A stretch of 64,000 nucleotides of DNA from Phycisphaerales bacterium (GTDB lineage Bacteria; Planctomycetota; Phycisphaerae; UBA1845): positions 1 to 64,000 of the forward strand of contig JADZBE010000020.1 of NCBI GenBank assembly GCA_020852275.1. The letters run 5' to 3'. The notes under the pieces are model-generated. The model had not been told where the DNA came from. It made no database searches and saw only the letters and a list, made by a program, of their open reading frames with translations. A program made the position numbers and the translations under genes. Below, piece after piece: positions 28,965 through 30,075 of the stretch (positions within the stretch are counted from its first letter, which is position 1; each line of letters opens with the position of its first letter).

Positions 28965-29693
28965 TCACCGCTCGAGGCCGGTCGCGGTCCACATCAGCTC
29001 CTGCCCGACGGCGGGGACAAGCAGGCATTCCCGAAGCTGCGGCGCGAGGGCGGCGCGGAACGCGTCGGCGGACGGCGCGAGCGCGGGGAACGTCTGGTAG
29101 TGCAATGGAAGAATGGCGGTGGGCTGGAGGAACTCCGCGGCGAGCGCCGCCCCGTCCGCGCCCATGGTGTACAGGTCCCCGATGGGCAGCAGGGCGATCC
29201 GCGGCGCAAACAGCCGGGCGATGAGCGTCATGTCGCTGAACACGTCGGTGTCGCCGGCGTGATACACCGTCGCCAAGTGCGGCGCCGCAATCACGGCGCC
29301 GTTGGGCATTCCCGCATAAACCGCCCCGTTCTTCGTCTCCAGCGCGGAAGAATGATACGCGCGCGTGAGGCTGACGCGCACGCCGGCGCACTCCTGCGTT
29401 CCGCCGGTGTTCATGCCGCGGTACTGTCCGCGCCCGAACGCGCGCTCCATCGCGCAGCACAGATCGTAATTCGCCACCACCGGCGGATTGAACCGCTTGA
29501 TCAGCGCCGCCGTGTCGCCGACGTGGTCCGCGTGCCCGTGCGTCACCACGATCAGATCGCAGCGCTGCGGCTCACGCAGATGCGGCGGGCACGCGGGGTT
29601 GCCCGTCAGCCAGGGATCGATCAGCACCACGCGACCGTCCGAAAGGGTCAGCCTTACGGCGGAATGCCCCAGCCACTGGATCGTCGCTGACAC
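28965..29693 (-). CDS. Metallo-beta-lactamase-fold metal-dependent hydrolase (UPF0173/UlaG-like)
   Basis: The 242-residue protein has the metallo-beta-lactamase signature THGHADHVGD near residue 51, a YHAGDT motif near 143 (metal-bridging Asp) and a final PLHYQTFPAL near 198 (metal His). The opening IQWLGHSAVRL is typical of the UPF0173/L-ascorbate-lactonase-like group. Family knowledge: zinc or manganese hydrolases of varied small-molecule substrates; the substrate here is unknown. It begins 15 bases after the SelW-like selenoprotein gene, so the two are likely co-transcribed. Confidence 0.92.
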   Translation of the reverse strand: MSATIQWLGHSAVRLTLSDGRVVLIDPWLTGNPACPPHLREPQRCDLIVVTHGHADHVGDTAALIKRFNPPVVANYDLCCAMERAFGRGQYRGMNTGGTQECAGVRVSLTRAYHSSALETKNGAVYAGMPNGAVIAAPHLATVYHAGDTDVFSDMTLIARLFAPRIALLPIGDLYTMGADGAALAAEFLQPTAILPLHYQTFPALAPSADAFRAALAPQLRECLLVPAVGQELMWTATGLER

Positions 29694-29708: not shown

Positions 29709-29954
29709 CTACGACTTGGGCTTTCCTTTCCCGGCGAGTTTGGCGATGCCGCTGAGGACTTCGTGATGCTCGGGAAAGCGGTCCATTTCGTGCTTGCTGA
29801 ATATCTTCTTGCCGTCCGCGTGAACATCGAAAACGCCGCCCCGGCCTTCGATGAGCGTGGGCTGGACGTCAAACTCCTCCTTGATGGCGTCCGCCAAACT
29901 GGCGGCTTTTGGGAGGTAGTTTCACTGCGTGCAGTACTGAATCGTGATCTTCAT
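29709..29954 (-). CDS. SelW/Rdx-family selenoprotein with in-frame TGA (Sec) in a CxxU motif
   Basis: The protein has 81 residues if the TGA at 29922-29924 (codon 11) is read as selenocysteine. ATG 29954 has AGGGAG 10 bases upstream. It begins MKITIQYCTQ, then U, then NYLPKAASLADAIKEEF. This is the Rdx/SelW pattern, where bacterial homologues carry YCTQC. The second half (LIEGRGGVFDVHADGKKIFS, then RFPEHHEVLSGI) matches the rest of the family, so the frame on both sides of the TGA is one conserved protein. Family knowledge: SelW-like proteins are small thioredoxin-fold redox proteins using a CxxC or CxxU pair. A SECIS-like hairpin follows the codon. If Sec is not inserted, only a 10-residue peptide results. 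The MBL-fold hydrolase follows 15 bases downstream. Confidence 0.88.
29891..29905 (-). promoter_or_regulatory. SECIS-like hairpin directing Sec insertion at the upstream TGA
   Basis: On the minus strand CCGCCA-GTT-TGGCGG forms a perfect 6-bp stem with a three-base loop starting G-T. The loop G is 23 bases after the TGA. Bacterial SECIS elements are short hairpins right after the UGA, with a G (often GU) in the apical loop about 16-37 bases downstream, read by SelB. This fits without special pleading. Confidence 0.7.
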
Positions 29955-30075
29955 TCTGAAAAAGCTCCCTGAGGCGCGAAGAATCCGCAACTCGCAGAAC
30001 CCATTCAGCGAGCCAATCGCGCCGATGGAGGATTATAGCCCGGTCCGCGCACTCGCAAAACATGCGGCGCCAGGC

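Follow-up and report, generated by a model that had tools for sequence, protein, structure and literature searches.

An in-frame UGA in a selW-like gene of a Phycisphaerales bacterium, predicted to be read as selenocysteine

The TGA at positions 29922..29924 of the 64,000-nucleotide stretch of DNA analysed here (the window), read on the minus strand, could end a short frame or encode an amino acid within a longer one, and the question raised by this locus is which of the two applies. A sequence-only reading had proposed the latter, describing a minus-strand frame that crosses the TGA and encodes a single Rdx/SelW protein in which the TGA replaces the second cysteine of a CxxC motif. Re-reading of the frame agrees with this description. 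It opens at ATG 29954, passes through the in-frame TGA (29924-29922) and continues to a TAG at 29711-29709, so that the gene occupies 29709..29954 of the minus strand. With the TGA translated as U, the product is a protein of 81 residues (MKITIQYCTQU-NYLPKAASLADAIKEEF...KPKS), which carries the N-terminal CxxC/CxxU redox motif of the family as CTQU at residues 8-11 (C8-T-Q-U11). The sequence GGGAG at 29965..29969 of the same strand, 10 nt 5' of the ATG, is a plausible ribosome-binding site. The curtailed frame that the same reading had expected from an internal TTG (29897) is also present, as an ORF of 62 amino acids, and this is what an ORF caller returns.

Family assignment of the 81-residue product

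We searched family profiles with selenocysteine replaced by cysteine in the query. The protein matched Pfam Rdx (PF10262; 69.2 bits against a cut-off of 22.6), NCBIfam NF041051 SelTWH_Campy (92.3 bits against 88) and NCBIfam TIGR02174 CXXU_selWTH (57.9 bits against 34.2). All three scores exceed the curated cut-offs, and the NCBIfam family model spans residues 3-69; the Rdx/SelTWH matches need both sides of the UGA, as expected if a single Rdx/SelW protein is encoded across it. The nearest named relative, and the one such relative given by a scan of genome contigs, comes from a Planctomycetota metagenome-assembled genome (L082) and is 65% identical. A search of the plasmid collection gave distant homologues, all below 40% identity.

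The protein, for which a thioredoxin-like fold would be expected, has significant sequence matches over residues 2-70 to the solved bacterial Rdx proteins 3dex, 2ojl, 2fa8, 2oka and 2p0g, which are farther in sequence (phmmer E from 1e-8 to 2e-4). A very weak sequence match (E = 0.49) was obtained with selenoprotein W of mammals (2npb), a member of the same family that likewise carries a CxxU near its N-terminus. In eukaryotes the SECIS is located in the 3' UTR (PMC1088965).

Conservation of the UGA and of the hairpin that follows it

Among 100 related genomes we found a homologue in 79; an in-frame TGA is present in all homologues among the matches listed. Sampling the phylum more widely gave 143 genomes with an NF041051 match out of 392, mostly with one TGA. 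The codon could be located in 61 homologue loci, where it is TGA at exactly residue 11 in 60 and TGC in the remaining one (L065), in keeping with the claim that the TGA stands for the second redox residue of the motif. The presence of the gene also follows that of selA, which was found in 74 of the 79 genomes with the SelW-like protein versus 13 of the 21 without it (Fisher P = 7e-4, uncorrected for phylogeny). We chose selA for this comparison because tRNA-Sec counts in the relatives are noisy, since the model also picks up long-arm tRNAs for Leu and Ser, and because only part of the tRNA-Sec candidates had been scored.

Two kinds of variant were seen among the relatives. Seven loci of the phylum (L084-L089 and L092) have Gly (GGC or GGA) or Ala (GCG) at the second redox residue, the GGA codon of L085 being one base from TGA. 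In every case the genome concerned also has the UGA form, so these seven look like selenocysteine-less paralogues. Separately, two TGAs occur within a few of the homologue stretches (L041; G008, G056 and G084), and in L041 the second looks like the terminal stop.

Directly 3' of the UGA, at 29891..29905 of the minus strand, lies the hairpin CCGCCA-GUU-UGGCGG, whose small apical loop contains a G, the arrangement described for bacterial SECIS elements (PMC1088965). The sequence-only reading had called this hairpin perfect, with a loop G 23 bases after the TGA; the stem is indeed exact over 6 bp, the G is the first loop base, 23 nt past the UGA, and the register is fixed across relatives. Across 38 distinct sequences aligned without gaps, standard pairs make up 88.7% of stem cells, and three stem pairs have changed on both sides (for example columns 18/30, from CG to GC and AU). 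Covariation in the stem was 0.242, a value reached by none of 500 shuffles (0.147 +/- 0.012), and slid registers gave at most 0.144. The loop G is invariant. In 49 of 51 distinct sequences the eighth and ninth codons past the UGA read AGT TTG, GGT CTG or AGT CTG, although five ORFs that neighbour the gene in the window use AGT for just 8 of their 212 serine codons and GGT for 28 of 363 glycine codons; the retention of such rare codons in the loop points to selection on the RNA rather than on the protein. In the Cys homologue L065 the stem is broken and the loop G absent.

Folding of the region was mildly more stable than that of shuffled sequences (z = -1.70), a modest value by which the hairpin would stand unproven; it is the comparative evidence that proves it. 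The outer stem is not shared by all: in this register, about a dozen more distant selenocysteine forms pair over only a short stretch or with an interruption (GCCACCA-GTT-TGGCGGC type). A search of Rfam gave no match for the hairpin beyond chance lncRNA hits.

Selenocysteine machinery and competing readings of the UGA

The sequence-only reading had made its case dependent on selA, selB, selC and selD, and all four were found in the host genome (5.05 Mb, 43 contigs), which disposes of the objection that selB or selC might be absent. A single tRNA-Sec exceeds the Rfam cut-off (C32:111988-112082, 66.3 bits), and ARAGORN reports it as tRNA-SeC with anticodon tca (UCA). The selB gene (C31:20399-22279), which has its C-terminal part, scores 348 bits in frame and is followed directly by selA (C31:22321-23679, 564 bits). 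The selD gene (C38:157082-157999, minus strand, 364 bits) has a single in-frame TGA of its own, its product beginning MTPSRKIRLTDYASCAGUAGKLP; SelD is therefore probably a selenoprotein as well.

These data bear on three other accounts of the locus. The first is that the UGA arose as an error of sequencing or assembly, or that a nonsense mutation has recently turned the gene into a pseudogene. One genome by itself would be insufficient to exclude this, and the account found no positive support beyond that. In independent genomes across the genus, family, order and phylum, however, a UGA recurs at this very residue, and coding conservation reaches the C-terminus, the 30 best relatives being 54-68% identical. 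A TGA shared by independent genomes is no sequencing error of the kind (TGC or TGT in the reads) raised earlier, and on these alignments error and pseudogene alike may for practical purposes be regarded as excluded, the chance that either is correct being minute. Hardly more can be said for a start at the internal TTG, which would give a 62-residue protein lacking the redox motif and leave the upstream part untranslated: that ORF is what standard gene calling would give, but MKITIQYCTQ and the residues just past the UGA are conserved as protein in relatives, with Cys8 kept, and the family model extends well upstream of the TTG. Conservation of the TGA together with the co-occurrence of selA is what error, recent nonsense mutation and an internal-start gene all fail to explain.

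The UGA might instead be read as Trp or Cys, through a change of code or near-cognate suppression, and not as selenocysteine. Some bacteria are known to read through UGA. Against this stand the complete selenocysteine machinery of the genome and a SECIS-type hairpin with compensatory changes, and we consider such a reading very improbable here. A further argument against it is that the selW-like gene was the one credible case of the two candidates left when every TGA of the window was filtered by open frame, CxxU/UxxC motif and SECIS-like hairpin. The other lies in a low-complexity frame and looks like chance.

We are thus left, with very high confidence, with a gene that would encode a bacterial SelW-like, thioredoxin-fold redox selenoprotein in which UGA codon 11 is read as selenocysteine by way of the SECIS. 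In bacteria, SelB and Sec-tRNA(Sec) bind the hairpin and the UGA is decoded as selenocysteine. By analogy with this established mechanism, the ribosome would reach the UGA as codon 11, SelB-GTP carrying Sec-tRNA(Sec) would bind the hairpin 17-31 nt downstream through the loop G, selenocysteine would be delivered at the UGA, and translation would run on to the TAG. The Cys-x-x-Sec pair of the finished protein would then be able to form a reversible selenenylsulfide. The window protein is probably a small thiol oxidoreductase, although this is less certain than selenocysteine insertion; the CXXU motif suggests a redox function for the SelW-like family, whose function is otherwise unclear (PMC1088965).

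The downstream hydrolase and the place of the gene in its family

A metallo-beta-lactamase-fold hydrolase (Lactamase_B_2/B_3 by Pfam match) is encoded at 28965..29693 of the minus strand, its GTG start lying 15 nt after the selW-like stop, and the two genes are possibly cotranscribed. A hydrolase homologue lies near selW in 11 of 30 loci (L022-L051), which makes a functional link possible. No Cys orthologue was seen among the matches listed for the 79 relatives. It is conceivable on this ground, though we think it rather unlikely, that in this planctomycete clade the protein is selenocysteine-only, the residue being indispensable and not exchangeable, and that it also forms a two-gene redox unit with the hydrolase.

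The SelW-like family, including its bacterial CxxU form, has long been known (PMC1088965, PMC1794560, PMC2398784). Members with CxxU have been described in the Sargasso Sea and GOS sets (PMC1088965, PMC2398784). The family is also listed for Geobacter sulfurreducens, Desulfotalea psychrophila and other cultured bacteria, few or no Cys homologues being present in organisms that use selenocysteine (PMC1794560). The window protein shares with bacterial SelW-like selenoproteins (PF10262, NF041051, TIGR02174) its size, CxxU, UGA position, SECIS directly 3' of the UGA and a whole-length match; the architecture is identical and the host lineage alone differs. It is a well-made, ordinary member of a family already counted among the commonest bacterial selenoproteins, and as such raises no new question on selenium use. 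The locus is nevertheless a clean case of a selenoprotein cut by ordinary ORF calling, the annotation of which is corrected here, and its many UGA-bearing relatives, together with the covarying hairpin, enlarge the SECIS data for the SelW-like family.
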